Assembly: GCA_003241815.1 (NCBI GenBank)
Contig: QBLV01000030.1
Coordinates: forward strand, 1 to 33,383
Reading direction: 5' to 3'
Origin: Hyphomicrobiales bacterium
GTDB lineage: Bacteria > Pseudomonadota > Alphaproteobacteria > Rhizobiales > Beijerinckiaceae
DNA: 33,383 nucleotides
Position 1 is the first letter of the stretch; each line of letters begins with the position of its first letter. The notes under the pieces were generated by a model, which was not told the DNA's origin, made no database searches, and was given only the letters and a program-made list of their open reading frames with translations. A program made the position numbers and the translations under genes. Of this stretch, positions 1 to 25,542 are shown one piece after another.

Positions 1-1239
1 AAGTCCGCCCCGGTCAAAGCCGACAGCGTTGGGCCGCCATCCGAGCCGACCCAAACTGACTTCAACCCCGACCATCCAGCGCAAACAGCCGGTTTTTCCT
101 CAGCCTGCAAGATGCTGTTCGCGCTCGGCAAGAACAACTCGCCCTGCACCTTCATCATGCCCGAACGCATCGCCAAGACCGATCCCTTCACCCAGATTAC
201 CGAGTATATCGGCTCGGGTCCGATGAAGTTCATGCGCAACGAGTGGGTGCCGGGCGCCAAGGCGGTGTTCGAGAAGTTCGCCGACTACGTCCCGCGCGAC
301 GAGCCCCCCTCCTGGCTGTCCGGCGGCAAGAAGATGCTGCTCGACCGGATCGAATGGGTCATCATGCCCGATGCGGCGACGGCGGCCGCCGCGCTTCAGA
401 ACGGTGAGGTCGACTGGTGGGAGACTGCGCTCACCGACCTCGTGCCGATCCTCAAGAAGAACGCCAACATCAGCGTCGACATCGGCGACCCGCTGGGCAA
501 TATCGGCGCCTTCCGCATGAACCATCTCCACCCGCCCTTCAACAACGTGAAGGTGCGCCAGGCGGTGATGACGGCGCTGAATCAGGAAGACTACATGCGC
601 TCGATCATCGGCGACGATGACAAGCTCTGGAAGGAAATGGGCGGGTTCTTCACGCCCGGCACACCGCTCTACACGGAGGAGGGCGGCGCGATGATGAAGG
701 CCAAGAACGTCGCCGCTGCGAAAAAACTCCTGGCCGAGTCCGGCTACAAGGACGAGCCGGTCGTGTGCGTCGTCGCGCAGGACATGGCAGCCACCAAGTC
801 GATGGGCGACGTCACGGCCGAACTGCTCAAGAGCATCGGCCTGAAGGTCGATTTCGTTGCGACCGACTGGGGCACGACCGGTGCTCGCCGTGCCCAAAAG
901 ACGCCTCCGAGCCAGGGCGGCTGGAGCATGTTCCACACCTGGCATGCCGGCGCCGACTGCGTGAACCCGGCCTCCTATACCGCCGTGCGCGCCAATGGCG
1001 ACAAGGCCTGGTTCGGCTGGCCGGATGTGCCCGCCGTGGAGACGGAAGTGACCAACTGGTTCGCCGCCAAGAATGCCGAGGAGGAAAAGGCTGCGATGGG
1101 CCGGCTCAACAAGGCAGCTGTCGAAAATGTCGTCTACTGCCCGACCGGCTTCTATCTCGGCTACCAGGCTTGGCGGAAGAACGTCTCCGGCGTGACGAGC
1201 GGGCCCTTCCCGGTTCTGTGGGGCGTGTCCAAGGCCTGA
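1..1239 (+). CDS. ABC transporter substrate-binding protein, SBP family 5 (peptide type); 5'-partial, reading frame disrupted in the first ~110 nt
   Basis: Intact frame from about 112 (MLFALGKNNSPCTFIMPERIAKTDPFTQITEYIGSGPMKF...) is typical of DppA/OppA-like SBPs. It is followed by two DppB/DppC permeases. Sequence before 112 only resembles an SBP if the frame is changed. Confidence 0.88.
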   Translation, partial: KSAPVKADSVGPPSEPTQTDFNPDHPAQTAGFSSACKMLFALGKNNSPCTFIMPERIAKTDPFTQITEYIGSGPMKFMRNEWVPGAKAVFEKFADYVPRDEPPSWLSGGKKMLLDRIEWVIMPDAATAAAALQNGEVDWWETALTDLVPILKKNANISVDIGDPLGNIGAFRMNHLHPPFNNVKVRQAVMTALNQEDYMRSIIGDDDKLWKEMGGFFTPGTPLYTEEGGAMMKAKNVAAAKKLLAESGYKDEPVVCVVAQDMAATKSMGDVTAELLKSIGLKVDFVATDWGTTGARRAQKTPPSQGGWSMFHTWHAGADCVNPASYTAVRANGDKAWFGWPDVPAVETEVTNWFAAKNAEEEKAAMGRLNKAAVENVVYCPTGFYLGYQAWRKNVSGVTSGPFPVLWGVSKA

Positions 1240-1388: not shown

Positions 1389-2330
1389 ATGCTAGCCTTC
1401 ATCGTCAGACGGATTATCACGACCATCCCTGTGATGGCCTTCGTGGCCCTGTTCGTCTTTTCACTGCTCTACATTGCGCCTGGTGATCCCGCCGCGGTCA
1501 TCGCCGGCGACCAGGCATCGCCGGCCGATGTCGAAAAGATCCGCGCCAGCCTCGGTCTGGACCGGCCTTATCTCGTGCGCTTCGCCGAATGGGCCTTCCG
1601 CGTGCTGCAGGGCGATCTGGGAACCTCGATCTTCACCTCGCTGCCAGTGACACAGCTCATCGCCCAGCGCATCGAGCCGACGCTCTCGCTGATGGTGCTG
1701 ACGCTGATCTTCGCGGTAACGATCGCGGTGCCGATGGGCGTCATCGCCGCCTGGAAGGCCGGAAGCTGGATTGACCGCGGCGCCATGGCCTTTGCGGTCT
1801 TCGGCTTCTCGGTGCCGGTGTTCGTCGTCGGCTACCTGCTGGCCTATATCTTCGCGCTGCAGCTCGATTGGGTTCCGGTGCAGGGCTACACGCCACTCTC
1901 GCAAGGTCTCTGGCCCTGGTTCAGGAACCTGATCCTGCCCTCGGTCACGCTCGGTCTGGTCTACATCGCCCTGATCGCGCGCATCACCAGGGCGACCATG
2001 CTTGAGGTGCTGCAGCAGGACTATGTCCGTACTGCGCAGGCCAAGGGCGTGGCGCCGCGCGAGACACTTTTCCTCCACGCGCTCAAGAACGCCGCCGTGC
2101 CGATCGTCACGATCATCGGCATCGGTATCGCGCTGTTGATCGGTGGCGCGGTCGTCACCGAAAGCGTCTTTGCCATTCCCGGTCTCGGCCGGCTCACCGT
2201 CGATGCGATCCTGCGGCGCGACTATCCCGTCATCCAGGGCGTCGTGCTGATGTTCAGCTTGGTTTACGTTCTGGTGAACCTGCTCATCGACCTCACCTAT
2301 ACGATCGTCGATCCGAGGATCCGCTATTGA
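1389..2330 (+). CDS. ABC transporter permease, DppB-like
   Basis: 313 aa, N-terminal MLAFIVRRIITTIPVMAFVALFVFSLLYIAPGDPAAVIAGD and EAA-type motif (QDYVRTAQAKGVAPRETLFLHALKNA). Confidence 0.93.
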   Translation: MLAFIVRRIITTIPVMAFVALFVFSLLYIAPGDPAAVIAGDQASPADVEKIRASLGLDRPYLVRFAEWAFRVLQGDLGTSIFTSLPVTQLIAQRIEPTLSLMVLTLIFAVTIAVPMGVIAAWKAGSWIDRGAMAFAVFGFSVPVFVVGYLLAYIFALQLDWVPVQGYTPLSQGLWPWFRNLILPSVTLGLVYIALIARITRATMLEVLQQDYVRTAQAKGVAPRETLFLHALKNAAVPIVTIIGIGIALLIGGAVVTESVFAIPGLGRLTVDAILRRDYPVIQGVVLMFSLVYVLVNLLIDLTYTIVDPRIRY

Positions 2331-3241
2331 CGATGCAAAGCTCCCTTTCCGTACCCTCCGCCCTGGCTGCTTCGCCTGAACCGGGCATCGCTCCGCTGCC
2401 TGGCCGCGGGGCCCGCTTCCGCCGTTATCTGCGCCGGCATCCGGCCGTGTCGATCGGCGGTGCGCTGCTCGTGTTGATGGCGTTGATCGCCATCTTCGCG
2501 CCGCTGCTCTTCACGGTGGACCCGACCGCGATCGCGACCTCGCGGCGCACGCGGGTGCCCTCCGAACTCTACTGGTTCGGCACCGATATGCTCGGCCGCG
2601 ACATCTATTCGCGCGTCGTCTATGGCGCACGCGTCTCGCTGGTCGTCGGCTTCAGCGTGGCCATCCTCTCTTCGGTGATTGGCCTCTCCATCGGGCTTTT
2701 CGCCGGCTTCGTGCGCTGGGCCGACGGCATCGTCATGCGCATCATCGACGGCATGATGTCGATCCCGCCGATCCTGCTCGCCATCGCGCTGATGGCGCTG
2801 ACGCGCGGCTCGATCCAGAACGTCATCATCGCGATTACCGTGGCCGAGATCCCGCGTGTGGCGCGCCTGGTGCGCGGCGTCGTTTTGTCCCTTCGCGAGC
2901 AGCCCTATGTCGAGGCGGCGATCGCCAACGGTGCGCGCACGCCGCGCATCATCTTCCGCCATATCCTGCCCAACACCTTCGCGCCGATGAGCGTTCAGGC
3001 GACCTATATCTGCGCCAGCGCCATGATCATTGAGGCGATCCTGTCGTTCATCGGCGCGGGCATCCCGCCGGCGACGCCCTCCTGGGGCAACATCATGGCC
3101 GAGGGACGCGCGCTCTGGCAGGTCAAGCCGCACATCATCCTCTTCCCGGCGATCTTCCTCTCGATCACGGTGCTTGCGGTGAACCTGCTGGGCGACGGCC
3201 TGCGCGACTCGCTCGATCCGAGGCTTGCCAAGGCTTTGTGA
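2327..3241 (+). CDS. ABC transporter permease, DppC-like
   Basis: 304 aa; RRHPAVSIGGALLVLMALIAIFAPL, SELYWFGTDMLGRDIYSRVVYGARVSL and ANGARTPRIIFRHILPNTFAP are DppC-type motifs. Start TTG 2327 overlaps the previous stop, or ATG 2333. Confidence 0.93.
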   Translation: MTMQSSLSVPSALAASPEPGIAPLPGRGARFRRYLRRHPAVSIGGALLVLMALIAIFAPLLFTVDPTAIATSRRTRVPSELYWFGTDMLGRDIYSRVVYGARVSLVVGFSVAILSSVIGLSIGLFAGFVRWADGIVMRIIDGMMSIPPILLAIALMALTRGSIQNVIIAITVAEIPRVARLVRGVVLSLREQPYVEAAIANGARTPRIIFRHILPNTFAPMSVQATYICASAMIIEAILSFIGAGIPPATPSWGNIMAEGRALWQVKPHIILFPAIFLSITVLAVNLLGDGLRDSLDPRLAKAL

Positions 3242-3442: not shown

Positions 3443-4378
3443 GTGAGCCGCATCCTGACCATCGCCGCAGCCCAGCTCGGCCCGATCCAGCGCGACGAGA
3501 GCCGAGCCTCGGCCGTCGCCCGGATGATCGAGCTGATGCGCCAGGCCAAGAGCCACGGCGCCGATCTCGTGGTCTATCCGGAAGCCGCCCTGACCGCCTT
3601 CTTTCCGCATTGGTGGATCGACGACGACGACGAGATCGACAGCCATTTCGAGAGCGCGATGCCGTCCAACGAGACCGCACCCCTGTTCGAGGAGGCCAAG
3701 CGACTCGGTGTCGGCTTCCACCTCGGCTATTGCGAACTCGCCTTCGAGGAGGGCCGCAAGCGTCGCTTCAACACCGCGATCCTGGTCGATAAGTCGGGTA
3801 CTATCGTCGGCAAGTACCGCAAAATCCACCTGCCCGGCCATCCCGAGCACCGCCCCGAGGCGCCGTTCCAGAACCTCGAGAAGCGCTATTTCGAGACCGG
3901 CAATCTCGGCTGGCCGGTGTGGCGGACGATGGACGCCCATATCGGCATGATGATCTGCAACGACCGGCGCTGGCCCGAGAGCTATCGTTCCATGGGCCTT
4001 CAGGATGTCGAGTTGATTGTGCTCGGCTACAACACGCCCAAGCATAATCCGCCGGCCCCGGACCATGACCGCCTCGGCAACTTCCACAACCAGCTCGTGA
4101 TGCAGGCGGGCGCCTACCAGAACGCGGCCTGGGTCGTCGGCGTCGCCAAGGCGGGGCTGGAAGCCGGCGTCGATCAGATCGGAGGCAGCTGCATCATCGC
4201 GCCGACCGGCGAGGTCGTGGCGCAGGCGGTGACCGAGGGCGACGAACTGGTCGTCGCGCGCTGCGACATGGATCTGGGCAAGAGCTACAAGGCCTCCACC
4301 TTCAACTTCGCCAGGCACCGCGAGCCGCAGGCCTATGGCCTGCTCGTCGAGCGCAAGGGCGCGGTGGGGCCGGTGTGA
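3443..4378 (+). CDS. Carbon-nitrogen hydrolase, N-carbamoyl-D-amino acid hydrolase-like
   Basis: 311 aa; catalytic triad contexts PEAALT (Glu), KYRKIHLPGH (Lys), MMICNDRRWPE (Cys). Close resemblance to remembered Agrobacterium DCase motifs (FFPHWW, RRFNTAILVDKSG, GYNTPKHNPP, FNFARHREPQAYGL). GTG start. Confidence 0.88.
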   Translation: MSRILTIAAAQLGPIQRDESRASAVARMIELMRQAKSHGADLVVYPEAALTAFFPHWWIDDDDEIDSHFESAMPSNETAPLFEEAKRLGVGFHLGYCELAFEEGRKRRFNTAILVDKSGTIVGKYRKIHLPGHPEHRPEAPFQNLEKRYFETGNLGWPVWRTMDAHIGMMICNDRRWPESYRSMGLQDVELIVLGYNTPKHNPPAPDHDRLGNFHNQLVMQAGAYQNAAWVVGVAKAGLEAGVDQIGGSCIIAPTGEVVAQAVTEGDELVVARCDMDLGKSYKASTFNFARHREPQAYGLLVERKGAVGPV

Positions 4379-4395
4379 ACGTTCGACCTCTTGCT

Positions 4396-4502
4396 CCGTC
4401 ATTCCGGACAAGCGGCGTATCTCGCCGATCCGGAATCCACCGAAGGGCGCCAAGCCTCCAGGATGGATTTCAGGTCTCCGCTTCGCTGCGCCGAAATGAC
4501 GG
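4396..4502. repeat. REP-like intergenic inverted-repeat element
   Basis: Termini ccgtcattccgg ... ccgaaatgacgg are inverted (11/12). Contains the GCTTCGCTGCGCC motif shared with other intergenic elements in this window. Confidence 0.6.
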
Positions 4503-4541
4503 TGTCTTGTTCTGAAATCGAAATTGAAGGCGAGAAACTCA

Positions 4542-5705
4542 ATGACCCACGATCTCATCCTCAAGGGCGGTCGCGTCATCGACCCGTCGCAGAAGCATGA
4601 CGGCGTCCTCGACGTCGCCTTCACCGACGGCAAGGTCTCGGGCTTCGGCAAGGATTTGAAGGGCGCCAAGGAAATCCGCGACGTCTCCGGCTACATCGTC
4701 ACGCCCGGCCTGATCGACCTGCACACCCATGTCTACTGGGGCGGCACCTCGCTGGGCATCGATGCCGACGAATTCTGCCGGGCGTCGGGCGTCACGACCT
4801 CGGTCGATACCGGCTCGGCCGGCCCCGGCAACTGGCCGGGCTTCCGCAAGCACGTCATCGAGAAGAGCCAAGCCCGCATCCTCGCCTATCTCCATGTCAG
4901 CCACGCCGGCATTTACGGCTTCGACCATCGCGTCATGGTCGGCGAGAGCCGCGACATGGCGATGATGAACCCGATCGACTGCGCCGAGGTCGCCGACAAG
5001 AACCGCGACCTGATCGTCGGCATCAAGGTCCGCGTCGGGCTGCATGCCTCGGGCGATCAGGGCACCGCACCGCTCAACATCGCGCTGCAGGTCGCAAACG
5101 AGGTCGGCATGCCTTTGATGTGCCATATCGACCATCCGCCGCCATCCTATGAGGAGGTGGTGAACATGCTCCGGCCGGGCGACGTCCTGACCCACGCCTT
5201 CCGTCCCTTCCCGAACGCGCCCTGCACCGCGCAGGGCACGGTCAAGCCCGAGGTGCTGGCTGCCCGCAAGCGCGGCGTGATCTTCGACATCGGCCATGGC
5301 AAGGGCTCGTTCTCGTTCAAGACGACGCGCGCCATGCTCGCCAACGGCTTCCAGCCGGATGTCATCTCGTCGGATGTCCACAAGCTCTGCATCGACGGCC
5401 CGGCCTACGATCAGGTCACGACGATGTCGAAATTCCTGCTGATGGGAATGAGCCTGAACGACGTCATCGCCGCCTCGACCGTGAATGCGGCGATGGCCCT
5501 GAAGCGTCCGGAATACGGTTCGCTCAGGGTCGGCTCGCTTGGCGACGCCACGATCCTGACGGTGAAGGAAGGCAAGTTCGACTATGCCGACGTCACCGGC
5601 GAGCACATGACGGGCGACAGGAAGATCGTCTCCGAAGGCGTCGTGCTCAAGGGCGCCTGGTGGCATCCGAGGCGCAGCAACAAGTTCAGGAAAGTGGCGG
5701 CCTGA
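4542..5705 (+). CDS. Amidohydrolase/deacetylase-family metallohydrolase (COG3964, dihydroorotase-like)
   Basis: MTHDLILKGGRVIDPSQKHDGVLDVAFTDGKV; VTPGLIDLHTHVYWGG metal site; MCHIDHPPP; HGKGSFSF; SSDVHKLCIDGP. ATG 4542 preferred over 4524. Confidence 0.88.
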   Translation: MTHDLILKGGRVIDPSQKHDGVLDVAFTDGKVSGFGKDLKGAKEIRDVSGYIVTPGLIDLHTHVYWGGTSLGIDADEFCRASGVTTSVDTGSAGPGNWPGFRKHVIEKSQARILAYLHVSHAGIYGFDHRVMVGESRDMAMMNPIDCAEVADKNRDLIVGIKVRVGLHASGDQGTAPLNIALQVANEVGMPLMCHIDHPPPSYEEVVNMLRPGDVLTHAFRPFPNAPCTAQGTVKPEVLAARKRGVIFDIGHGKGSFSFKTTRAMLANGFQPDVISSDVHKLCIDGPAYDQVTTMSKFLLMGMSLNDVIAASTVNAAMALKRPEYGSLRVGSLGDATILTVKEGKFDYADVTGEHMTGDRKIVSEGVVLKGAWWHPRRSNKFRKVAA

Positions 5706-5753
5706 GCCGGCCGGCAGCTTCGAGTTCCGTCGCAATCGCGGATTGGCATCGCC

Positions 5754-6263
5754 ATGCCGGTTCCTCTCCCGACGTGGCGCCCCATGACCGCGACCGACCT
5801 GCCGGCCGTAATGGCGATCGCCGCTGTCGTCCATCCTGATTATCCGGAAGACGAGGCCGTTTTCGCCGAGCGTCTGCGCCTCTTCCCGGAAGGTTGCCTC
5901 GTGCTGGAGGGTGGAGGCCATCTGCACGGTTATGTGGTCAGCCACCCCTGGTCTCGGGCTGCGCCGCCCGCCCTGAACAGCTTGCTGGACGAATTGCCGG
6001 GGCACGCCACCTGCTTCTACATCCACGATCTCGCGCTGTTGCCGGCGGCGCGTGGCAGCGGGGCAGGGCGCGCGATCGTCGCGAGGCTGGCGGAGATTGC
6101 GGCGCGGTGCGGTCTGCCATGCCTTGCGCTCGTCGCGATCGACGGCTCGCCCGGCTTCTGGCAGCGCCATGGCTTTCGCGTGCTGCATGACGGCGCCCTT
6201 GCGGCCAAGCTCGCGAGCTATGACGATGCCGCCCGCTACATGGAGCGCAAGCTCGATTCCTGA
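5754..6263 (+). CDS. GNAT-family N-acetyltransferase
   Basis: 169 aa; IHDLALLPAARGSGAGRAIVARLAEIAARCG acetyl-CoA binding motif and GFWQRHGFRVL C-terminal motif. Confidence 0.87.
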   Translation: MPVPLPTWRPMTATDLPAVMAIAAVVHPDYPEDEAVFAERLRLFPEGCLVLEGGGHLHGYVVSHPWSRAAPPALNSLLDELPGHATCFYIHDLALLPAARGSGAGRAIVARLAEIAARCGLPCLALVAIDGSPGFWQRHGFRVLHDGALAAKLASYDDAARYMERKLDS

Positions 6264-6304
6264 CGCCATGCGCGTCATCACGCCAAGACGACGAGGAAAC
6301 GCCG

Positions 6305-6763
6305 ATGAGCGCCGAACAGAAGCTGAAGGACCTCGGGCTGAGTCTGCCGGAAATGGCCGCGCCCATGGCGAATTATGTCCGCTTTAAGAAGGCTGGAGAC
6401 CTCGTTTTCCTCTCGGGGCAGGGGCCGCGCAATCCCGATGGCTCGATACCCGCCGGCAAGGTCGGCCAGGAGTTCACCACCGAACAGGCCTATGAATTCG
6501 CGAAGATCACGGGCTTAGGTCTCCTCGCAGCGATGAAGGAGGCGGCGGGCTCACTCGACAAGGTCGAAATCATCAAGCTGCTCGGCATGGTCAATGGCGT
6601 GCCGGAGTTCGGCGATCAGCCCAAGGTCATCAATGGCTGCTCGGACCTGCTCGTCGCGGTGCTCGGCGAGAACGGTCGCCACGCCCGCTCGGCGGTCGGC
6701 ATGGGGTCGCTGCCCGGCAACATGCCGGTCGAGATCGAAGTGATCATCAAGGTGTTGCCGTGA
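6305..6763 (+). CDS. RidA/YjgF family protein (enamine/imine deaminase type)
   Basis: 152 aa; LGLSLPEMAAPMANYVRFKKAGDLVFLSGQGPRNPDGSIPAGKVGQEFTTEQAYEFAKITGL... YjgF-like with C-terminal MPVEIEVIIKVLP. Confidence 0.9.
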   Translation: MSAEQKLKDLGLSLPEMAAPMANYVRFKKAGDLVFLSGQGPRNPDGSIPAGKVGQEFTTEQAYEFAKITGLGLLAAMKEAAGSLDKVEIIKLLGMVNGVPEFGDQPKVINGCSDLLVAVLGENGRHARSAVGMGSLPGNMPVEIEVIIKVLP

Positions 6764-7851
6764 CCGTGTCCACACAGGAAGCGCTTAAGGCGGAGATCGC
6801 GCGGGTCTACGGCACCCCGGCCGTCGTGATCGATCTCGACAAGGTCGAGGCCAATATCGCCCGGCTCCAGGCCGCCTGCGATGCGGCCGGCGTCGCCAAC
6901 CGCCCCCATATCAAGACGCATAAATCGCCCGAGCTGGCCCGCCTCCAGATCCAGGCCGGCGCGCGCGGCATCACCTGCCAGAAGCTCGGCGAGGCCGAGG
7001 TGATGGCCGATGGCGGCATCGACGACATCCTGATCAGCTACAACATCCTCGGCGAGCAGAAGCTCGGCCGGCTCGGCCATCTCCAGCGTCGGGTCCGAAT
7101 GATCGTCGCCGCCGACAACCCCGTCACGATCGGCGGCCTGCCCCAGGCGGCGGAGATCGCCGGGCGCGATCTCGAAGTGGTCGTCGAATGCGATACCGGG
7201 CGTCAGCGCGCCGGCGTCGAGACGCCGGCTGAGGCCGTCGAACTGGCGAAGCTGATCGCTGCCTCGAAGGGCCTGCGCTTCGCCGGCTTCCTGATGTACC
7301 CGCCGGAAGACGGCTGGGAGCGGACGCAGGTGTTCCTCGATACCGCCAATGCAGGCCTGCGCGACGCGGGGCTCGAAGCCGGCATCGTCTCGACCGGTGG
7401 CTCGCCGAACATCCCCCACATCGGCAAGCTCAGGGGCGCGACCGAGCACCGCGCCGGCACCTCGATCTTCAACGACCGCATGCAGGTCGCGGCCGGGGTG
7501 GCGACGCTCGATGATTGCGCGCTGAGCGTCTACGCCACTGTGGTGAGCCGCGCCGGCCCCGAGCGCGGCATCCTCGATTCAGGCTCCAAGACGCTGACCA
7601 GCGACACCGGCGGCCTCGAAGGGCACGGCTACATCCTCGAATATCCTGCCGCCCGAATCGCCCGTTTTGCCGAGGAGCACGGCTTCCTCGACCTGTCTGC
7701 CAGCAATGGCCGGCCCAAGGTCGGCGAGGTCGTGCGCGTGGTGCCCAATCATGTCTGCGTCGTCGTCAACATGGTCGATCGGTTGGTCACGGTGCGCGGT
7801 GACACGCTGGTGGGAGAACTACCGGTCGCGGCGCGCGGCAAACTCGTCTAA
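6760..7851 (+). CDS. D-threonine aldolase / D-serine dehydratase family PLP-dependent enzyme (fold type III)
   Basis: 363 aa; TPAVVIDLDKVEANIARLQ, RPHIKTHKSPELARLQ (PLP Lys region), C-terminal VVPNHVCVVVN metal motif. 4-bp overlap with ridA-like gene. Confidence 0.9.
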   Translation: MTVSTQEALKAEIARVYGTPAVVIDLDKVEANIARLQAACDAAGVANRPHIKTHKSPELARLQIQAGARGITCQKLGEAEVMADGGIDDILISYNILGEQKLGRLGHLQRRVRMIVAADNPVTIGGLPQAAEIAGRDLEVVVECDTGRQRAGVETPAEAVELAKLIAASKGLRFAGFLMYPPEDGWERTQVFLDTANAGLRDAGLEAGIVSTGGSPNIPHIGKLRGATEHRAGTSIFNDRMQVAAGVATLDDCALSVYATVVSRAGPERGILDSGSKTLTSDTGGLEGHGYILEYPAARIARFAEEHGFLDLSASNGRPKVGEVVRVVPNHVCVVVNMVDRLVTVRGDTLVGELPVAARGKLV

Positions 7852-7875
7852 CGGGCTGCAGACCGTTCGCAATCC

Positions 7876-7897
7876 GCGCCGCGCCAAGTCGCGGCGC
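7876..7897. repeat. Perfect hairpin just upstream of the MFS gene
   Basis: gcgccgcg-ccaagt-cgcggcgc, 8-bp perfect GC stem, 6-nt loop, ending 10 nt before the MFS ATG. Confidence 0.6.
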
Positions 7898-7907
7898 ATC
7901 CGAAGGA

Positions 7908-9197
7908 ATGGCCGTGGCCTCTGAGCAGGACGTCGAGGGCAAGGAGTCGATCCGTCCCGAAGCTGGCAGGCCGGGGGGATCGATAGCGACGCTGGGCGCC
8001 ATCGTCGCCGGCGCGCTGGTTCTGCAGATCGCCGGCACGCTGATCAACACGCTTGTGCCGCTGAGCCTTGCGCTGGCGAAGCAAAGTCCGCTGCTGATCG
8101 GTGTCGTCGGTTCCGCCTATTCGGTTGGCTTTCTCTGGGGCTGCTTCAAGCTCCCGCCCCTGATCCGCCGGATCGGTCATATCCGCGCTTTCGCGGTCTT
8201 CGCGTCGCTGCAGACGATGGCGACGATCTCGATCGCTCTGCTGCCGGCGGAGACATGGGTTTTGCCAAGGTTGGTGATGGGCCTGGCCGCAGCGGGACAT
8301 GGCGTCTGCATTGAAAGCTGGATCAGCGGGCAGGCTCATCCGAGCCAGCGCGGCCGGATTTTCGGCCTTTACCAGATCCTCAACCGCGTCGCCTTGATCG
8401 CGTCGCAGCTTGCCGTCGGCTATGCCGCCGTCGCGATGGAGAGCATGCTGCTGCTGGCGGCGATGGCGTTCTCATCGGCCCTGATACCGGTTTGCCTGAC
8501 GCGAGCGCGCGGTCCGGAATCCTCCGATACGGGGACGCTCAAGCTCGGGCTGCTCTGGGCGCAGGCGCCGGCGGCGGTGATCGGCTGCCTCTATGTCGGC
8601 CTGATGAGCGGCCCCCTGGTCAACGTCGCGCCGGCCTATGGCATCCTGATCGGGCTCGATCAGAGGGCCGCGATCCTGCTGACCGCTTCCGTCCAGATCG
8701 GCGCCCTCATGCTGCAATGGCCGATCGGCCACGTGGCCGACCGCTACGACAGCCGCATCATCATGCTGGCGTCGGCTGCGACCGTCGTCGCGGCTTTGGG
8801 CGGCCTTGGCATCGGCCTCGTTGCCGGTCCCATGCCTGCACTCTGGTTGCTCGGGTTGTTCGGCATCGTCGGAGCCGGCAGCATTCCGCTCTACACCGTC
8901 GCGGTGACGCATGCCTTTGCGCGCCTCAAGGACGAACAGCCGGTGGGTCTGTCCGCCGGGCTTTTGTTTTTGTGGGGTATCGGCTCGACGATCGGCCCGC
9001 TGGCAGCGTCCGCTTCCATGCAGACGGTCGGGCCGCAGGGCCTGCCGCTCTATTTTGCAGTCCTCTCGATCGGTCTGTGCGTGTTTCTCGCCATCCGCCT
9101 CGTCCGGAAGCCGGCGCCGGGAGCTCTGGAGACCCGCCATGAGGCGACGCCGATGTCCGTGCCGGGAATGGGGTCGAGGCTGACGCCGCTCAAATGA
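7908..9197 (+). CDS. MFS transporter (YcaD-like)
   Basis: 429 aa, about 12 hydrophobic segments; VVGSAYSVGFLWGCFKLPPLIRRIGHIRAFA and RGRIFGLYQILNRVALIASQLAVGYA. Confidence 0.87.
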   Translation: MAVASEQDVEGKESIRPEAGRPGGSIATLGAIVAGALVLQIAGTLINTLVPLSLALAKQSPLLIGVVGSAYSVGFLWGCFKLPPLIRRIGHIRAFAVFASLQTMATISIALLPAETWVLPRLVMGLAAAGHGVCIESWISGQAHPSQRGRIFGLYQILNRVALIASQLAVGYAAVAMESMLLLAAMAFSSALIPVCLTRARGPESSDTGTLKLGLLWAQAPAAVIGCLYVGLMSGPLVNVAPAYGILIGLDQRAAILLTASVQIGALMLQWPIGHVADRYDSRIIMLASAATVVAALGGLGIGLVAGPMPALWLLGLFGIVGAGSIPLYTVAVTHAFARLKDEQPVGLSAGLLFLWGIGSTIGPLAASASMQTVGPQGLPLYFAVLSIGLCVFLAIRLVRKPAPGALETRHEATPMSVPGMGSRLTPLK

Positions 9198-9239: not shown

Positions 9240-9779
9240 TCAGTTCTGCCTGATCTTCGAGCCCTTGATCACCACGTCGGCGGACGCCTTGACGTTGATT
9301 TTGCTGCTCGCCTTCAGGCTGACGTCGCGCCCTTCGAGATCGACGGTGCCGTCCTTTTTCATCTCCAGCGACGCGCCGCCCGTCTTGATGGCAACGGCAT
9401 CGGCAGCCTCGATCGTCAACTTCTTGCCGGTCTGGATCGTCAGATCCTTCAGCGCTTTGACGGCAAATGACTGGTCGCTGTTGAGGCTCAAAGCGACTGT
9501 CGCCGAGAGGTTGCACTGGCGGCTGTCGAGCGCGATCTCTTGCCCGCCTGTCAGCCTGATCCTGGTCCCGGCGGTGACCGAGGCGATGCTCCCGGCCGTG
9601 GCGTTGAGTTGGCTGCCCGCGACCAGAGCCAGTGTCCCCCCGGCCGCGATCGTGATGCCTCCCGGTGCCATGATCGACAATGTGCCCGACGGCGTGGCGG
9701 AGATCAGCGCCGTCAGCGAGGCAAGTTGACTCTCCAGCTTGGCGATACGGCGTTCGAGCGCGTCGCTATCGGCTGCCAT
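9240..9779 (-). CDS. Stand-alone beta-solenoid protein resembling the VgrG/phage-spike C-terminal (DUF2345-like) region, with N-terminal coiled coil
   Basis: 179 aa; N-terminal heptad-like ALERRIAKLESQLASLTALIS, then alternating hydrophobic repeats ending DGTVDLEGRDVSLKASSKINVKASADVVIKGSKIRQN, resembling VgrG tails (...VTIKGSKI.LN). No VgrG N-terminal domains present. Confidence 0.7.
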   Translation of the reverse strand: MAADSDALERRIAKLESQLASLTALISATPSGTLSIMAPGGITIAAGGTLALVAGSQLNATAGSIASVTAGTRIRLTGGQEIALDSRQCNLSATVALSLNSDQSFAVKALKDLTIQTGKKLTIEAADAVAIKTGGASLEMKKDGTVDLEGRDVSLKASSKINVKASADVVIKGSKIRQN

Positions 9780-9867: not shown

Positions 9868-10593
9868 TCACTCCGGATGCCGGGCGTTCCACGTCTGCGC
9901 ATAGGTGGTGCAGAGCCGGTCGAGTTCGTCGCGGTCGGTGACGCCGGCCGGCCGGCCGCGCGAGGGCGACGCCTGCTGGAACGGGACATAGCGCTGATGG
10001 GCCAGGCGCCAGAGCCGACGCAGTTCGGCCAGCGGAGCGGCATGGTCGTCGACGCGAATGTCGAAGCTCGGCACGGGCTCCCCCGCCCAGATCCGGATCG
10101 CGGCCGATTGCCGGCCGCGCTTGTCGCCGCCCGCTTTCTCGCCGGCTTCGAGCGCGACCAGCAGCCGTTCGTCGAAATCGAGTGCCGAGCCTGCGATATA
10201 GGCCTTCAATGTCTGCTGGATCACCTCCGGACCACTGAGCATGTTGCCGGCGACTGAGACCTGCGGCCCGTCGACGGCCCCGCACCAGTCGATGCAAGAC
10301 GCCCCTGTAAAAGCGGCGATCTTGCCCTCGCGGTCGATGACATGGAGCTGGCGGTGGGCCCGGCCTTCATCGGCAGCGGTCAGCGTCGCGATGATCTCGA
10401 CGGCCGAGCGGCCCTCCTGGAGCAGGCGCATACCGTCGACGCCGTAGAGCGGATTGACGAAGGCCTGCGTCGCGATCGCGCCGATGCGGCCGCCGCCATA
10501 GGGCACCCGCGAGCCCACTGCGAAGGCGCAGGTCGAGACGGCGACGCCAAAAGCGCCGGTGGCGGCGTCGCGGGCGACGATGGACCAGGTCAT
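9868..10593 (-). CDS. DUF1028 domain protein (putative Ntn-hydrolase-like)
   Basis: MTWSIVARDAATGAFGVAVSTCAFAVGSRVPYGGGRIGAIATQAFVNPLYGVDGMRLL is a classic DUF1028 N terminus. Start set at 10593, 11 nt after the upstream GGT stop. Confidence 0.9.
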   Translation of the reverse strand: MTWSIVARDAATGAFGVAVSTCAFAVGSRVPYGGGRIGAIATQAFVNPLYGVDGMRLLQEGRSAVEIIATLTAADEGRAHRQLHVIDREGKIAAFTGASCIDWCGAVDGPQVSVAGNMLSGPEVIQQTLKAYIAGSALDFDERLLVALEAGEKAGGDKRGRQSAAIRIWAGEPVPSFDIRVDDHAAPLAELRRLWRLAHQRYVPFQQASPSRGRPAGVTDRDELDRLCTTYAQTWNARHPE

Positions 10594-10604
10594 GGGTTGT
10601 TTCC

Positions 10605-12404
10605 TCAGCGGCCGGCGGCGTAGGCCTGCATCAGACGCGGCGTCGCGGCTGCGCGCAAGAGGCCGTCCGCGCCCTTCTCGGCCGCCGTCAGCCGCCCGAT
10701 CGTCCAGGCGGGTGCGCGCTCCAGCCTGTGGCCGCGCGCAACGAGATCGGCCAGCACCCGTTCGCCGAGGCTTTCCTCGACCGCCAGATGTCCCGGATTG
10801 GCTTCTCGGGGATAGAAGGTCGACGGGAAGTGCTGGGTGTGGAACAGCGGCAGGTCGATCGCCTCCTGAAGATTGAGGCCGTGATGGACGCGGCGCAGGA
10901 ACATGCCGAGCTGCCACTGCTCCTGCTGGTCGCCGCCCGGCGTTCCGAAGACGAGGCGTGGCTCGCCGTTCTCGAAGGCGAGCGAGGGTGTCAGCGTCGT
11001 GCGCGGGCGTTTGAACGGGGCGAGCGAGGAGGGCAGCCCTTCGTCCAGGAAGAAGGCCTGGGCGCGGGCATTCAGCGGGAAGCCGAGCGACGGGATCACC
11101 GGCGAAGACTGGAACCAGCCGCCCGATGGGGTCGCGGCGATCATGTTGCCCCATTTGTCGATGACGTCGATATGCACGGTGTCGCCGCGCCGGCCGGCCG
11201 CGACCATCGAGGCAGTGGTCGGTTCGCCGACCGTCGCGTCACTTTTGCCGGATTGGCCGACATAGCGGACGCTGGCCATGGCGCGCGCGACCTGCTCCTC
11301 GAAGCCGGCGACCATGCCCGGCCGCAATTCCTGTGAGGCCGTGTCTGTGATGAGGTTGCGGCGTCCCCGCGCATAGTCCTCGGAGAGCAGCGTGGCCAGC
11401 GGCACCTTCACGAAATCCGGGTCGCCGTAATAGGCCTCGCGATCGGCGAAGGCGAGTTTCATGGCCTCCGCGACATGATGAATGAAGGCCGCGCTGTCGG
11501 GCCCCATGCCGGCGATGTCGATGCCTTCCAGGATTTTCAGTGTCTGCAGGAAGACCGGGCCCTGGCCCCAGGGGCCGATCTTGAAGACCTCCCAGCCGTG
11601 ATAGGTCACGCTGGTCGGCGTCTCATAGGTCGGCTGCCAGCGCGCCATGTCGTCGGCGGTGAGCAGGCCCTTGTGGCGGCGGCCCGAGGAATCGATCGCC
11701 TCGGTCGTGCGGCAGAAGGCGTCCATCGCCTCGGCGACGAAGCCCGTGTACCAGGCGTCGTAAGCCGCCTGGATCTGCTTTTCGCGGCTGCCGCCGGCTG
11801 CCTCCGACTCGCTGAGGATGCGCTTGTAGGTGTCGGCTGCGGCCTGGTTTCGAAACAGCGCCTTGGCTTTGGGCACCTGCCCGCCCGGCAGATAAACAGC
11901 GCCCGAGGTCGGCCATTCCTGCGTGAACAGGTCGGTCAGCCCGGCGATGGTGTCGCTGACGCGCGGCAGCATCGGATGGCCGTTCTCGAAATAACCGATG
12001 GCAGGCTCCAGCACCTCGCGTAGGGGCAGCAGGCCGTGATCCCGCAGCAGCGTCATCCAGGCGCCGAAAGCGCCTGGCACGACCGCTGCGAGCAGGCCCG
12101 AGCCGGGCACGAGATCCAGGCCCAGTGCCTTGAAGGCTTCGATGGACGCGGCTTGGGGCGCCGTGCCTTGTCCGCAGATCACCTCGACCTTCTTCGACTG
12201 CGCCGAATAGAACACGGCCGGCATCTCGCCGGCGGGTCCGACGAGATGGGGCTCGACGACCTGCAGCACGAAGGCCGCGGCCGCGCAGGCGTCGAAGGCA
12301 TTGCCGCCCTTCTCCAGCATCGCCATGCCCGTCGCTGTGGCGAGCCAATGCGTCGAGGTGCAGACACCGAAGGTGCCGAGGATTTCCGGGCGGGTGGTGA
12401 ACAT
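10605..12404 (-). CDS. Gamma-glutamyltransferase-family protein (no signal peptide apparent)
   Basis: 599 aa; ATATGMAMLEKGGNAFDACAAAAFVLQVVEPHLVGPAGE, GDTVHIDVIDKWGNMIAATPSGGWFQSSP (nucleophilic Thr context), FGTPGGDQQEQW. Confidence 0.9.
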   Translation of the reverse strand: MFTTRPEILGTFGVCTSTHWLATATGMAMLEKGGNAFDACAAAAFVLQVVEPHLVGPAGEMPAVFYSAQSKKVEVICGQGTAPQAASIEAFKALGLDLVPGSGLLAAVVPGAFGAWMTLLRDHGLLPLREVLEPAIGYFENGHPMLPRVSDTIAGLTDLFTQEWPTSGAVYLPGGQVPKAKALFRNQAAADTYKRILSESEAAGGSREKQIQAAYDAWYTGFVAEAMDAFCRTTEAIDSSGRRHKGLLTADDMARWQPTYETPTSVTYHGWEVFKIGPWGQGPVFLQTLKILEGIDIAGMGPDSAAFIHHVAEAMKLAFADREAYYGDPDFVKVPLATLLSEDYARGRRNLITDTASQELRPGMVAGFEEQVARAMASVRYVGQSGKSDATVGEPTTASMVAAGRRGDTVHIDVIDKWGNMIAATPSGGWFQSSPVIPSLGFPLNARAQAFFLDEGLPSSLAPFKRPRTTLTPSLAFENGEPRLVFGTPGGDQQEQWQLGMFLRRVHHGLNLQEAIDLPLFHTQHFPSTFYPREANPGHLAVEESLGERVLADLVARGHRLERAPAWTIGRLTAAEKGADGLLRAAATPRLMQAYAAGR

Positions 12405-12419
12405 GCGTGGTCCTTAGGC

Positions 12420-13304
12420 TCAGTTTTCTTTGGGATCGAGGACGTCGCGCAGGCCGTCACCCAGCAGGTTGAAGCCCAGAACGGCGAGGAAGATGCAGAT
12501 GCCGGGCGCCACCGACATCCAGGGCGCTTGCTCCATGAAATTCTTGGCGACGTTGAGCATCTGGCCCCAGGAGGGTGCAGGCGGCTGCTGGCCCAGCCCG
12601 AGGAAGGAGAGGGCTGCTTCAAGAATGATGGCCTGCGCCATGAACAGCGTCGACTGCACGACAATAGGCGACAGAATGTTGGGCAGGATGTGACGGACCA
12701 CGATCCGCAGATCCCGCGCGCCCACGGCCCGCGCGCCTTCGACGAAATCCTCCGCCTTGACGCTCATGACCTGAGCCCGCACCAGCCGCACGAAGATCGG
12801 CACGGCCGAAAGCCCGATCGCGATCATCGCATTGGTCAAAGACGGGCCGAGCACGGCGGCGAACGCGATCGCCAGGATGAGAAAGGGACAGGCCAGCATG
12901 GCCTCGGTGACGCGGGAAATCGCGGCGTCGACCCAGCCGCCATACCAGCCGGCAAGCAGCCCGAACGGCACGCCGATGGCGAGCGCGATCAGCACCGAGA
13001 TGATGCCCGCCAGCAGCGAGGCTTGCGCGCCGAAGAACAGCCGAGAGACCAGGTCGCGCCCGAGTTCGTCAGTCCCGAACCAATACAGCTCCGAGGGCGG
13101 CTTGCGGATGGCAAGGAAATTCGACTTCAGTGGGTCGGCGAGCGGCAACAGCGGCGCCAGGACTGCCATCAGCACGAAGGCGAGCACGACGGCCCCGCCG
13201 ATCAGCGCCGAGCGGTTGCGGAAGAGCCTGGCCAGCACGCTCGGCCGGGGACGCAAGATGGGCTCGGCCGGTCCGGTCAAGGCCACTGTTTCGGTCACCG
13301 CCAT
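12420..13304 (-). CDS. ABC transporter permease, DppC-like
   Basis: MAVTETVALTGPAEPILRPRPSVLARLFRNRSALIGGAVVLAFVLMAVLAPLLP; SELYWFGTDELGRDLVSRLFFGAQASL; DGLRDVLDPKEN C-terminus. Longer 631-aa ORF start rejected. Confidence 0.92.
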   Translation of the reverse strand: MAVTETVALTGPAEPILRPRPSVLARLFRNRSALIGGAVVLAFVLMAVLAPLLPLADPLKSNFLAIRKPPSELYWFGTDELGRDLVSRLFFGAQASLLAGIISVLIALAIGVPFGLLAGWYGGWVDAAISRVTEAMLACPFLILAIAFAAVLGPSLTNAMIAIGLSAVPIFVRLVRAQVMSVKAEDFVEGARAVGARDLRIVVRHILPNILSPIVVQSTLFMAQAIILEAALSFLGLGQQPPAPSWGQMLNVAKNFMEQAPWMSVAPGICIFLAVLGFNLLGDGLRDVLDPKEN

Positions 13305-14248
13305 CACTGTTGCCTCAGCCGAGGATTGACGAGGATATACAGCACGTCGGCCAGCAGGTTCATCACGATGAAACCGATCGCCGTACATAAGACCACGCCT
13401 TGCACCACGCCGTAGTCGCGGTTGAACACCGCATCGACGATTAGCTTGCCGAAGCCAGGAATCGTGAAAACCTGCTCGGTCAGGATGGCTCCACCCAGCA
13501 ATTCGCCGAACAGGATGGTCGTCAGCGTAATGATCGGCACCAGCGCGTTGCGCAGGGCATGTCGGTTCACCACCGCATCCTCGTCGAGCCCCTTGGCACG
13601 CGCCGTGCGGACATAGTCGGAGCGCAGCACTTCGAGCATGGCGGAGCGGGTGTGGCGCATCAGGAAGGCGGCGAGACCCGAGCCGAGCACGAAGGCCGGC
13701 ATGATCAGCCGCTCGATCGCCCCGATCGGATCGCTGAAGAACGGCTCGTAGCCCGACGCGGGGAGCCATTTCAGTTCGACCGAGACGACGAGGATCAGCA
13801 TGATCCCGAGCCAGAAATTCGGGATCGACAGACCCGAGAGGGCCAATGCGCTGGTCGAGTAATCCACGACCGTATCCTTGCGTCGGGCCGCGAGGATGCC
13901 GGCGGGAATGCCGATGCCGATGGCGACGATGATCGAGGCGATGGCGAGCTGCAGCGTCACCGGCAGCTTCTGCAGGATCAGCCCTAGCACCGGCTCGCCG
14001 GTGCGCAGCGAGCGGCCAAAATCGCCCTGCACCACCTGCCCGAGCCATGCGAAGAACTGGACGACGATGGGGTCGTCCAGGCGGTAGAGCGCGCGCAGCC
14101 GCGCGATCACCTCGGGATCGCGTTCCTCCCCTGCGATCACCAGAAACGGGTCGCCCGGCAGGGCACGCTGCAGGGCAAACACGAACAGCGACACCAGAAA
14201 CAGCGTCGGCAGCGCGATGAGAATGCGGCGGCCGATCAGGGCGAGCAT
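13304..14248 (-). CDS. ABC transporter permease, DppB-like
   Basis: 314 aa; MLALIGRRILIALPTLFLVSLFVFALQRALPGDPFLVIAGEERDPEVIARLRALYRLDDP. Overlaps the DppC-like start. Confidence 0.92.
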   Translation of the reverse strand: MLALIGRRILIALPTLFLVSLFVFALQRALPGDPFLVIAGEERDPEVIARLRALYRLDDPIVVQFFAWLGQVVQGDFGRSLRTGEPVLGLILQKLPVTLQLAIASIIVAIGIGIPAGILAARRKDTVVDYSTSALALSGLSIPNFWLGIMLILVVSVELKWLPASGYEPFFSDPIGAIERLIMPAFVLGSGLAAFLMRHTRSAMLEVLRSDYVRTARAKGLDEDAVVNRHALRNALVPIITLTTILFGELLGGAILTEQVFTIPGFGKLIVDAVFNRDYGVVQGVVLCTAIGFIVMNLLADVLYILVNPRLRQQ

Positions 14249-14266
14249 GACGCGCTCTGATCCGCC

Positions 14267-14376
14267 CCGTCATCCTGGACAAGCCGCGCAGCGGCGCAGC
14301 TCCGGGATCCATCATAGGGCATCGGTTCTGCTCGATGATGGATCCCGGGACGACCTTCGGTCGCCCAGGATGACGG
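14267..14376. repeat. REP-like compound inverted repeat between SBP and permease genes
   Basis: Perfect 12-bp termini ccgtcatcctgg ... ccaggatgacgg, and internal gggatccatcat ... atgatggatccc perfect 12-bp arms. Confidence 0.8.
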
Positions 14377-14405
14377 TGCCTTTGCCGCCATGGGGTGGCC
14401 GAGCC

Positions 14406-15911
14406 TCAAGACCGCTTCATTCCCGCCAGCCGGATCATGCCGTCGGGGCTGATCACGAAGCCGCTGATATTGGAGCGCATCGCGAAGAACACCGTCTGGT
14501 TGTAGAGGTAGACGATCGGCAGTTCGTCCTGCAGGAACTTCTGAGCGGCGTCGTAGCGCTTCTTGCGCTCGGAGACGTCATAGATCGTACGGGCTTCATC
14601 CAGCAGCTTGTCGACCTCGGCATTCGAGTAGCGCCCGTCGTTCTGGTTGCCCTTCGACGTCACGAACTGGTGGAGGTTTCCGTCCGGGTCGATGCGGCCG
14701 GACCAGCCGATGCGGCTCATCTGGAACTTGCCCTGCTGCTGGTCCCGCAGCTGGCTGGCGAATTCCGTCGAGCGGATCTGGATGTCGATACCCGCTTCCG
14801 CCGCCATCGCCTGGATGACCTGGCCGAGCTGAGCGTCAACGGGGTTGTTCGTGACGAACAGCTCGACCGAGACCTTGGTCAGGCCGGCCTCCTTCAGCAG
14901 CGCCTTGGCCTTCGCAACGTCGCGCGCCGGCACCGGGAAATCGGCGTTGACATAGGGGTTGCCGGGATTGAAGGGCTGAATAATCGGTGCATAGAGCCCT
15001 TCGAACACGACCTGGCTCAGAACCTTGCGGTCGATCGAGAGCGACAGCGCCTGACGCACGCGCTTGTCCTGGCCCATCGGCTGCTTGGCGGCTTCACCAT
15101 GGGCGGTGTTGATGGTGATGCCCTGATAGCCGAGATTGGCGACGCTCGCGACCTGGAGCGCCTTGTCGCCCTGTGCCGACTTCACGTCGGTCGGAGCGAG
15201 CCGCTCCAGCATGTCGAGCTCGCCGGCGCGCAGATTGGCGAGGCGCACCGTGGTGTCGGGGATCGCACGGTAGAGCACGCGGTCGAAATGGTAATTCTGC
15301 GCCTCCCAATGCTCCTTGAAGCGCTCCAGCACGATGCGGTCGTTCTGCACGCGTTCGACGAATTTGTAAGGGCCCGAGCAGACCGGTTTGGCGCCGACAT
15401 CACCCGACAGGCTCTTGGGCGCCAGCATCATGCCGGCGCGATCGGTGAGCTGCGCCAGCAGCGTCGCATCGGGGCGCTTGAGCTTGAGCGCGATCGTGGT
15501 CGGGTCGACGACCGTGATGCTGTCCACGGAAGCAAGCTCGGATTTGCGCAGCGAGTCGGGCAGGGTCCGGGCGCGCTCGAGATTGGCCTTGGCGGCCTCG
15601 GCGTTGAAAGCCTCGCCGTCATGGAACCTGGCATCGCTGCGAAGTTTCATCGTCAGCGTCAGGCCGTCGGGCGAGAACGACCATTCGGTCGCCAGGCGCG
15701 GGATGATCTTGAGGTCCGGCGTGATGTCGAGCAGCTTGTCGCAGAGCCCCTTGAAGACGATACGGCCAACGAAGGTGCGGGCCTTGTGCGGGTCGAGGAC
15801 GTCGGGGTCTTCCTGCAGCCCGATGCGCAGGGTCGATGGCGCCTGCGCGAGTGCAGGCAAGGCCGAGAACGTCAGCACCGTGGCGGACGCAAGGGCGGCA
15901 AGCAGCTTCAT
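14406..15911 (-). CDS. ABC transporter substrate-binding protein, SBP family 5 (peptide type)
   Basis: MKLLAALASATVLTFSALPALAQAPSTLRIGLQEDPDVLDPHKARTFVGRIVFKGLCDKLLDITPDLKIIPRLATEWSFSPDGLTLTMKL; signal peptide; internal start 15911 preferred to 16028. Confidence 0.92.
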   Translation of the reverse strand: MKLLAALASATVLTFSALPALAQAPSTLRIGLQEDPDVLDPHKARTFVGRIVFKGLCDKLLDITPDLKIIPRLATEWSFSPDGLTLTMKLRSDARFHDGEAFNAEAAKANLERARTLPDSLRKSELASVDSITVVDPTTIALKLKRPDATLLAQLTDRAGMMLAPKSLSGDVGAKPVCSGPYKFVERVQNDRIVLERFKEHWEAQNYHFDRVLYRAIPDTTVRLANLRAGELDMLERLAPTDVKSAQGDKALQVASVANLGYQGITINTAHGEAAKQPMGQDKRVRQALSLSIDRKVLSQVVFEGLYAPIIQPFNPGNPYVNADFPVPARDVAKAKALLKEAGLTKVSVELFVTNNPVDAQLGQVIQAMAAEAGIDIQIRSTEFASQLRDQQQGKFQMSRIGWSGRIDPDGNLHQFVTSKGNQNDGRYSNAEVDKLLDEARTIYDVSERKKRYDAAQKFLQDELPIVYLYNQTVFFAMRSNISGFVISPDGMIRLAGMKRS

Positions 15912-21558: not shown

Positions 21559-22356
21559 TCAGGAAACGTGCAGCCGCTCCAGCGGGAACCGCGCCACATC
21601 GGCCAGCAACTCGACGAAGCCCTTGGCTTGCAGTGCGGCCGTCGCCTTGCCCTTCTCTGGCGTCGCCAGACTCGCATCGCCCGCCGCGCCTGATGCGTGA
21701 ACATCCTGCGCCATCCAGGCCATTGCGTGCAGTCCCGTCGGGCGCAGCCAGGTGTAGCCCTCTGCCGCCATCTCGACGGTCAGCGGGTTAAACGCCGCAG
21801 CCTGGCTCATATCGACGAGATCGGGCCGGAAGTGCAGCATCAGCGAGGTCTCGATATCGCCCGCATGAATGCCGTGCTGCGCGTCGAGTTCGGCGAAGAC
21901 GCCGGCCGGCAGGCCGAAGGCGCGCCACGCCGTCGTCACCGCCAGCATGCCGTGGCGCACCCGCAACTCACGGGCGACCACTTTCATCGGGTCGATGTTG
22001 CCGCCATGCGAGGTCACGATCACGAGCTTGCGCAGGCCGGCGCGCTTCACGCTCTCGCCGATCTCGATCCAACTCTGGGTCGCAGTTTCCCAGGATAGCG
22101 TCAGCGTACCGGGCGAATGCAGGTGTTCGTTGGACTTGCAGACCGACAGCGTCGGCAGCACCAGCACCTCCAGTTCGGCCGGCACCAGCTGCATGGCCTC
22201 GGCCAGCATGGCGTTCATGATCGTGGTGTCGACGGAGACCGGCAGATGCGGCCCATGTTGCTCGATCGCCGCCAGCGGCAGCACCGCGAGCGTGTTCTCC
22301 ACCGACAGCCCGGCGAAATCCGTCGTCTTCAGATCGCCCCAGAAGCGCGCGCTCAT
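21559..22356 (-). CDS. Creatininase family protein
   Basis: 265 aa; LPLAAIEQHGPHLPVSVDTTI, VTSHGGNIDPMKVVARELR, HAGDIETSLMLHFRPDLVDM. Confidence 0.9.
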   Translation of the reverse strand: MSARFWGDLKTTDFAGLSVENTLAVLPLAAIEQHGPHLPVSVDTTIMNAMLAEAMQLVPAELEVLVLPTLSVCKSNEHLHSPGTLTLSWETATQSWIEIGESVKRAGLRKLVIVTSHGGNIDPMKVVARELRVRHGMLAVTTAWRAFGLPAGVFAELDAQHGIHAGDIETSLMLHFRPDLVDMSQAAAFNPLTVEMAAEGYTWLRPTGLHAMAWMAQDVHASGAAGDASLATPEKGKATAALQAKGFVELLADVARFPLERLHVS

Positions 22357-22554
22357 CGTCTCTTGATCCCTGTATCGTGAGGTTGCCAGCCTAGATCATC
22401 TGCGGCGAAAGTGCTGGACTCGATCGCGTGCGGAAAAAGATGATCGGCGTCGTGACGCAGTGTCGCGGTTCCTGCTTTTGGGCAGCCCATGGCATATTAG
22501 TTGCTGGCGCGCGGTCAAGGCGATGGCCGACAATTCTCAGGGGAGGTCACAACG

Positions 22555-23579: not shown

Positions 23580-23584
23580 TGACC

Positions 23585-23659
23585 CGTCATGCTCGGGTCG
23601 GCCCGGACATCTCCTGATCCAGATTCTCGGGGCTGCGCTTCGCTCGCCAGAGAATGACG
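23585..23659. repeat. REP-like element between SBP and ATPase genes
   Basis: Inverted termini cgtcat ... atgacg; contains TGCGCTTCGCTCGCC motif; overlaps annotated ATPase start codon. Confidence 0.5.
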
Positions 23660-24505: not shown

Positions 24506-24524
24506 CGCCAATGCATTGCCTCCC

Positions 24525-24646
24525 CACAGCCCTCATCCTGAGGAGCCGCGCAGCGGCGTCTCGAAGGATGCTCCAGATGACTCCGGTATCTCCTGGAGCA
24601 TCCTTCGAGACGCGAGCTTCGCTCGCTCCACAGGATGAGGGCTGTG
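24525..24646. repeat. Large near-perfect inverted repeat (arms ~52-54 nt, 16-nt loop)
   Basis: cacagccctcatcctgaggagc...gtctcgaaggatgctccag / ctggagcatccttcgagac...gctccacaggatgagggctgtg. Confidence 0.9.
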
Positions 24647-24662
24647 AGATGAGAGGCGGAGC

Positions 24663-25541: not shown

Positions 25542-25542
25542 G

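Follow-up and report, generated by a model that had tools for sequence, protein, structure and literature searches.

The locus described here raises the question of what purpose is served by a group of genes that combines an N-carbamoyl-D-amino-acid hydrolase (D-carbamoylase), an amidohydrolase of the COG3964 family, a RidA protein and a pyridoxal phosphate (PLP)-dependent enzyme with an Opp-type importer. The group lies at the beginning of contig QBLV01000030.1 (our C185) from a Hyphomicrobiales bacterium of the Beijerinckiaceae, a soil bacterium of the Bosea type; the 33,383 nucleotides of this contig are called the window below; the amidohydrolase of this genome is 97-98% identical to those of Bosea contigs. 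An initial annotation, made from the nucleotide sequence, had listed six enzyme and permease genes on one strand beside a peptide-type importer, and all six proved to be intact and on the plus strand, downstream of an Opp-type importer (Table 1). From gene content, gene order, conservation and active-site signatures we infer all substrates, the stereochemistry and the role of each reaction in one pathway. The cluster is real, recurrent and probably functional, and we consider the chances somewhat better than even that it serves the catabolism of N-blocked D-2-amino-3-X-propionates, with D-serine derivatives the likeliest substrates in this strain.

The PLP protein scored highest against D-threonine aldolases (4v15 and 7dib; E 3e-46), followed by BhcC, D-threo-3-hydroxyaspartate dehydratase and D-serine dehydratase. 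In the D-threonine aldolase AxDTA, Mn is held by His347 and Asp349 and His193 is the proposed base, whereas D-serine dehydratase holds Zn by His and Cys and lacks a base of the His193 type (PMC4401734). The PNHVC sequence of the window protein aligns to PSHVD of AxDTA, a Trp residue fills the His193 column, and the PLP lysine motif RPHIKTHK is present. By its lysine motif and His-x-Cys site the protein is predicted to resemble the fold-type III Zn-dependent D-serine dehydratases. Because the His-x-Cys site is present and His193 is absent, retro-aldol cleavage of D-threonine appears disfavored and β-elimination of a D-serine-like substrate to 2-aminoacrylate appears favored. An identity as D-threonine aldolase was rejected, as the protein has neither the His-x-Asp metal site nor His193. 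Where the initial annotation had named a D-threonine-aldolase/D-serine-dehydratase-family enzyme, the dehydratase half of the name can be kept and the aldolase half dropped, and the same correction applies to proteins that score as D-threonine aldolases yet bear a dehydratase site.

Nearly all of the homologues linked to the amidohydrolase share this site. PNHxC was found in all near-full-length homologues at amidohydrolase loci except two: that of L164 (38% identity, less than 8 kb from the amidohydrolase gene) carries PGHCDPT, and that of L152 (24% identity), in which the motif was not found, is not a convincing orthologue. RPHIKTHK was present in nearly all of them, the pattern being unmatched in L092 and L153. 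PNHVC also occurs in L157, a locus retrieved through its PLP gene and not known to contain an amidohydrolase gene, and PGHCDPT occurs in the paralogues of L172 (contig C215, elsewhere in the window genome) and L173. By these motifs, the separation of the amidohydrolase-linked enzymes from their paralogues appears strong, though not perfect.

The stop codon of the RidA gene and the start of the PLP gene share 4 bp (GTGA). The active-site Arg is conserved, ARSAV in the window protein aligning to ARSCV of MMF1 (family motif ARS(A/C)V), and this residue assigns the predicted protein to the imine/enamine deaminases, whose classical substrate is 2-aminoacrylate. The D-carbamoylase matched N-carbamoyl-D-amino-acid hydrolases in the Protein Data Bank across residues 1-306 (E 7e-122) with the motifs of the Glu-Lys-Cys triad intact (YPEAALT, KYRKIHLPG and MMICNDRRW), and full-length similarity and triad together support its predicted membership in that family. 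The amidohydrolase, the open reading frame of which opens at TTG 4524 with the ATG start at 4542, scored 449.9 bits against the curated model NF006689 (cut-off 371), and its metal-site motifs DLHTH, GIKVR, MCHID, THAF and SSDVH are intact in an alignment to 2ogj, so that it can be assigned by model and binuclear metal site to COG3964. In annotations, amidohydrolases of this group are mislabeled as dihydroorotase or adenine deaminase, and to our knowledge no physiological role has been established for them.

After a metal-ligand histidine, the window amidohydrolase and most of its relatives read TH[AC]FRPFPN where 2ogj has THCFNG; the THCFNG motif of acetyl-hydroxyacid deacetylases of the Atu3266 type is thus absent from the window protein, and we infer that the motif at this site sets specificity. 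An AlphaFold model was built from 21 orthologues (predicted local distance difference test, pLDDT, 81.5), and a single-sequence model (pLDDT 34.6) was discarded. In Foldseek searches the nearest structures were those of COG3964 (8wzy, 8je0, 2ics and 2ogj; E about 1e-35), with hydantoinases (about 1e-14), allantoinases and N-acyl-D-glutamate deacylase far behind. The modeled fold does not discriminate between acyl and cyclic substrates. An open-access literature search on Atu3266, N-carbamoyl-D-serine and the carbamoylase/RidA combination found nothing, although a prior report is still possible.

Gene neighbors were counted by tblastn, because a simple gene caller had followed the wrong strand at loci such as L044, L047 and L078. 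Within 8 kb at 81 non-Bosea amidohydrolase loci, OppB was found in 37, RidA in 29, the dehydratase in 18, D-carbamoylase in 14 and diaminopropionate ammonia-lyase (DpaL) in 13, against 2, 0, 1, 0 and 0, respectively, of 40 control regions, each 17.5 kb long and taken from a related genome. These five families and the amidase were enriched (p 1e-6 to 0.01), the creatininase family was weakly enriched (p 0.036), and M20 was not (p 0.3), by one-sided Fisher tests on loci that are related and hence not independent. The amidohydrolase and dehydratase genes lay no more than 10 kb apart in 6 of the 10 sampled genomes that have both, for which the chance under random placement is about 2e-12. When 88 amidohydrolases were placed on a quick tree, the presence of dehydratase and of RidA shifted alike in 5-6 independent pairs and oppositely in 0-1; no joint change with the dehydratase was seen on the same tree for Opp, D-carbamoylase or DpaL.

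The families recur in several arrangements (AH, amidohydrolase; DSD, dehydratase-type PLP enzyme; DCase, D-carbamoylase; Amd, amidase; CRN, creatininase family; SBP, solute-binding protein). In Bosea the order is M20-Amd-SBP-OppBC-(DF)-(DpaL)-DCase-AH-(GNAT)-RidA-DSD, and other Beijerinckiaceae are alike except for GNAT. CRN-M20-DpaL-DCase-AH is found in L100, L108, L110 and L163, Opp-Amd-DSD-AH in L146, L148 and L154, AH-DSD in L155 and L156, RidA-CRN-AH with Opp in L136, L138 and L144, and DpaL-AH-RidA in L086. Opp and RpiR are divergent from AH-RidA-DSD in L118, L119, L121 and L167, and DSD-RidA stands on the Opp side in L117 and L122. DpaL and the dehydratase are both present in L076-L080. 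The conserved core is an Opp importer, a COG3964 amidohydrolase, RidA and a PLP enzyme, often with a D-carbamoylase. The neighborhood search for co-occurring families that the initial annotation had proposed thus revealed co-conservation above chance, in several gene orders across the Alphaproteobacteria. A SelA-like PLP protein (PF03841), possibly another D-amino-acid lyase, adjoins more distant amidohydrolases in L128, L168, L150 and L123.

In the pathway that we favor, the Opp-type importer would bring in the blocked compound or a peptide containing it, the amidohydrolase would strip an acyl group, or one similar to it, while N-carbamoyl groups would fall to the D-carbamoylase, and with the M20 carbamoylase and amidase encoded upstream L- and amide forms would be covered as well. 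The D-serine-dehydratase-like metal/PLP enzyme would then convert the freed D-amino acid to 2-aminoacrylate by β-elimination, and the co-translated RidA would convert this toxic intermediate to pyruvate and ammonia. The recurrent context also points to a Rid protein reserved for one pathway that produces 2-aminoacrylate. The recurrent clustering supports the general route of uptake, deblocking, PLP chemistry and RidA hydrolysis put forward initially, with the aldolase step replaced by a dehydratase step and the substrate as putative as before. DpaL also yields 2-aminoacrylate (PMC9239102). Since DpaL is reported to have equal activity on the L- and D-forms of diaminopropionate (PMC12507026) and serine is a very poor substrate (PMC6393727), the probable substrates are diaminopropionate derivatives where a cluster has DpaL and D-serine-like compounds where it has the dehydratase; L076-L080, having both enzymes, perhaps handle both.

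One could instead envisage a non-canonical hydantoin or ureide route, in which the COG3964 enzyme is a ring-opening, hydantoinase-like cyclic amidase that feeds the D-carbamoylase, the M20 carbamoylase takes the L-form, and products with a β-leaving group are then eliminated. D- and L-type carbamoylases are both present in the operon, creatininase-family cyclic amidases occur in related clusters, and among 337 genomes of the class a D-carbamoylase was found in 28 of the 31 in which the amidohydrolase match is strong and in 29 of the 306 others. This co-occurrence is far above expectation, but it was uncorrected for kinship and genome size beyond one sub-sample, that of genomes bearing any D-threonine-aldolase-family gene (22/24 with and 18/74 without the amidohydrolase). 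Against this route, the nearest structures are those of COG3964 and not of hydantoinases, and within the family eight amidohydrolase-bearing genomes have no D-carbamoylase match anywhere, which weakens the case for the amidohydrolase as an obligatory hydantoinase. RidA and the dehydratase are encoded in the amidohydrolase locus of G141, G051, G010, G098, G081 and G030; the loci of the other two, G121 and G069, were unread. The D-carbamoylase is therefore optional in the cluster, and because genomes without it keep the amidohydrolase, RidA and dehydratase, release of the amino acid is probably the work of the amidohydrolase. On this evidence we regard the hydantoin route as unlikely. At other D-carbamoylase loci, DpaL adjoins the gene in L182, L183 and L192 and M20 adjoins it in L184, L187 and L189 or is two genes away (L188); in L186 (G176:C1) an Opp importer, a D-carbamoylase and a protein that resembles a D-aminoacylase by eye stand together, with no COG3964 enzyme seen.

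Two further explanations are less probable still. The scavenging of nitrogen by a general island of loosely associated hydrolases with unrelated substrates would fit the lineage-specific GNAT and MFS genes, the absence of partners from many amidohydrolase loci and the second Opp/gamma-glutamyltransferase cluster next door; it accounts poorly for the recurrence of the same few families in distinct gene orders and for the joint shifts of dehydratase and RidA on the tree, and we find it quite improbable. The catabolism of D-3-hydroxyaspartate or another D-β-hydroxy amino acid, in which the PLP enzyme would resemble D-threo-3-hydroxyaspartate dehydratase and RidA would hydrolyze the imine, draws on 3wqc, in which the His-x-Cys site is also present and whose score equals that of 3anu in closeness. 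No aspartate-side partner was seen in the cluster and the linked DpaL enzymes use a three-carbon substrate, and we find this explanation about as improbable. The catabolism of blocked D-serine-like compounds is itself opposed by several observations. Many amidohydrolase loci, including those of Bradyrhizobium, are without the dehydratase and RidA, and the amidohydrolase therefore has other partners or uses. Characterized COG3964 enzymes such as Atu3266 favor acetyl-(R)-mandelate esters over N-acetyl-D-serine. The importer has no local ATPases, a weak terminator-like hairpin 3' of OppC may separate importer from enzymes, and the carbamoylase may belong to a different pathway.

Table 1. Genes of the importer and enzyme cluster in the window
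Feature	Position	Strand	Matches and remarks
Extracellular solute-binding protein family 5 (SBP, Opp/Dpp type), residues 134 to end	109..1239	+	PF00496, E 1.8e-43; 5' part on contig C98
OppB-type permease	1389..2330	+	PF00528, E 1.6e-43; order kept in Bosea and relatives
OppC-type permease	2327..3241	+	PF00528 and PF12911
N-carbamoyl-D-amino-acid hydrolase (D-carbamoylase, nitrilase superfamily)	3443..4378	+	PF00795; PDB 8i99/6lcg/1erz/1fo6, E 1e-111 to 1e-122
COG3964 amidohydrolase/deacetylase, THAFRPFPN sub-group	4542..5705	+	NF006689; PDB 2ogj
GNAT acetyltransferase	5754..6263	+	PF00583; Bosea-specific accessory
RidA/YjgF-family protein (PF14588 type)	6305..6763	+	PF14588, PF01042; PDB 3d01, 9bk9
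Fold-type III PLP enzyme, D-serine-dehydratase-like	6760..7851	+	PF14031 and PF01168 above cut-off; RPHIKTHK, PNHVC
MFS transporter	7908..9197	+	PF07690; same strand, not conserved with the cluster

The start of the window is a contig end, and the M20 hydantoinase/carbamoylase-family enzyme, the amidase and the beginning of the SBP gene sit on another contig of this genome, C98. Of the L039 SBP, residues 1-134 have their match on C98 and residues 134-509 in the window, beginning at base 109, and in Bosea relatives the M20 carbamoylase and amidase precede the SBP; from these relatives, C98 and the window can be joined into one putative operon. Bases 1-108 of the window show no match to the SBP, whose gene has its 5' portion on C98 (L201), and look like assembly junk at the contig end. 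The OppD and OppF genes that the window importer lacks are present in a few Bosea copies (L041 and L060) and in many relatives and are absent from most Bosea copies, in which the ATPase genes may have been lost or ATPases may be borrowed from another importer.

GNAT was found near the amidohydrolase in 34 of 38 Bosea loci and MFS in 3 of 38, and neither in the 96 others. The cluster as drawn initially therefore keeps the D-carbamoylase, amidohydrolase, RidA and PLP enzyme, while GNAT and MFS, not being conserved outside Bosea, were rejected as core members. A stand-alone DUF2345 protein (VgrG-like β-helix; 9240-9779, minus strand) neighbors the amidohydrolase at 18 of the 38 Bosea loci and at 0 of the 96 others, with 37-88% identity. 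Convergent with the cluster, at 9868-15911 on the minus strand, are genes for a DUF1028-like protein (by reading; NCBIfam gave no family for it), a gamma-glutamyltransferase-like protein (unscanned), OppC, OppB and an SBP; in most Bosea this group, too, is conserved next to the main cluster. Farther along, positions 21559-26934 hold a creatininase-family gene, an SsuABC importer and an FAD-linked oxidase. The SsuA-type binding protein gene at 22639-23576 is split by a frameshift near 22875-22890 and is either a pseudogene or an assembly error; its homologue in L083 is intact. In L083 the amidohydrolase is flanked by the creatininase family, SsuABC and FAD oxidase, and in L087/L161 by SsuABC and FAD oxidase, so that this second cluster may be functionally linked to the first.

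Among known systems, hydantoin-utilization operons (D-hydantoinase/D-carbamoylase) share with this cluster the D-carbamoylase family (E 1e-122) and, upstream, an M20 hydantoinase/carbamoylase-family enzyme; what sets the window apart is its COG3964 amidohydrolase, RidA and dehydratase-type PLP enzyme. Reading and scanning of the window genes gave neither a hydantoinase nor a hydantoin racemase, and none was seen, by eye, among the neighbors of the second D-carbamoylase of the genome (C223), and the amidohydrolase is nearest to COG3964 structures, so that the earlier statement that this is not the standard hydantoin operon holds. The amidohydrolase has its family, fold and metal-site motifs in common with Atu3266/2ogj, 8wzy, 8je0 and 2ics, and differs in THAFRPFPN versus THCFNG. 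The PLP enzyme shares the fold-type III domain, the His-x-Cys site and RPHxKT with 3anu and 3wqc, although its overall score is nearer to the D-threonine aldolases. We rejected membership in the reductive uric-acid pathway: among 60 genomes of the family, none had the SsnA marker above its cut-off, and DpaL (YgeX) was not found in the window genome (G000, 90% complete) at E<=1e-50. The lower part of that pathway (HyuA, UacY/YgeW, YgeY and YgeX; PMC12507026) nevertheless resembles the cluster closely in function, in having an amidohydrolase and ureido removal, and in the DpaL of the cluster's relatives, whereas the hydrolase families differ and the window cluster has an Opp importer. The catabolism of acyl- or carbamoyl-D-amino acids is of a known kind, of which the gene set here is a variant, and its recurrent context makes a physiological role of COG3964 enzymes testable on blocked D-serine-like compounds. 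A bolder proposal, which we advance as speculation and think doubtful, is that the TH[AC]FRPFPN sub-group represents a new hydrolase specificity heading an Opp-fed route for ureido- or acyl-blocked D-serine and D-diaminopropionate. With a RidA of its own, and with PLP lyases of different folds that can stand in for one another in forming 2-aminoacrylate, this route would be an aerobic counterpart of the lower reductive uric-acid pathway.

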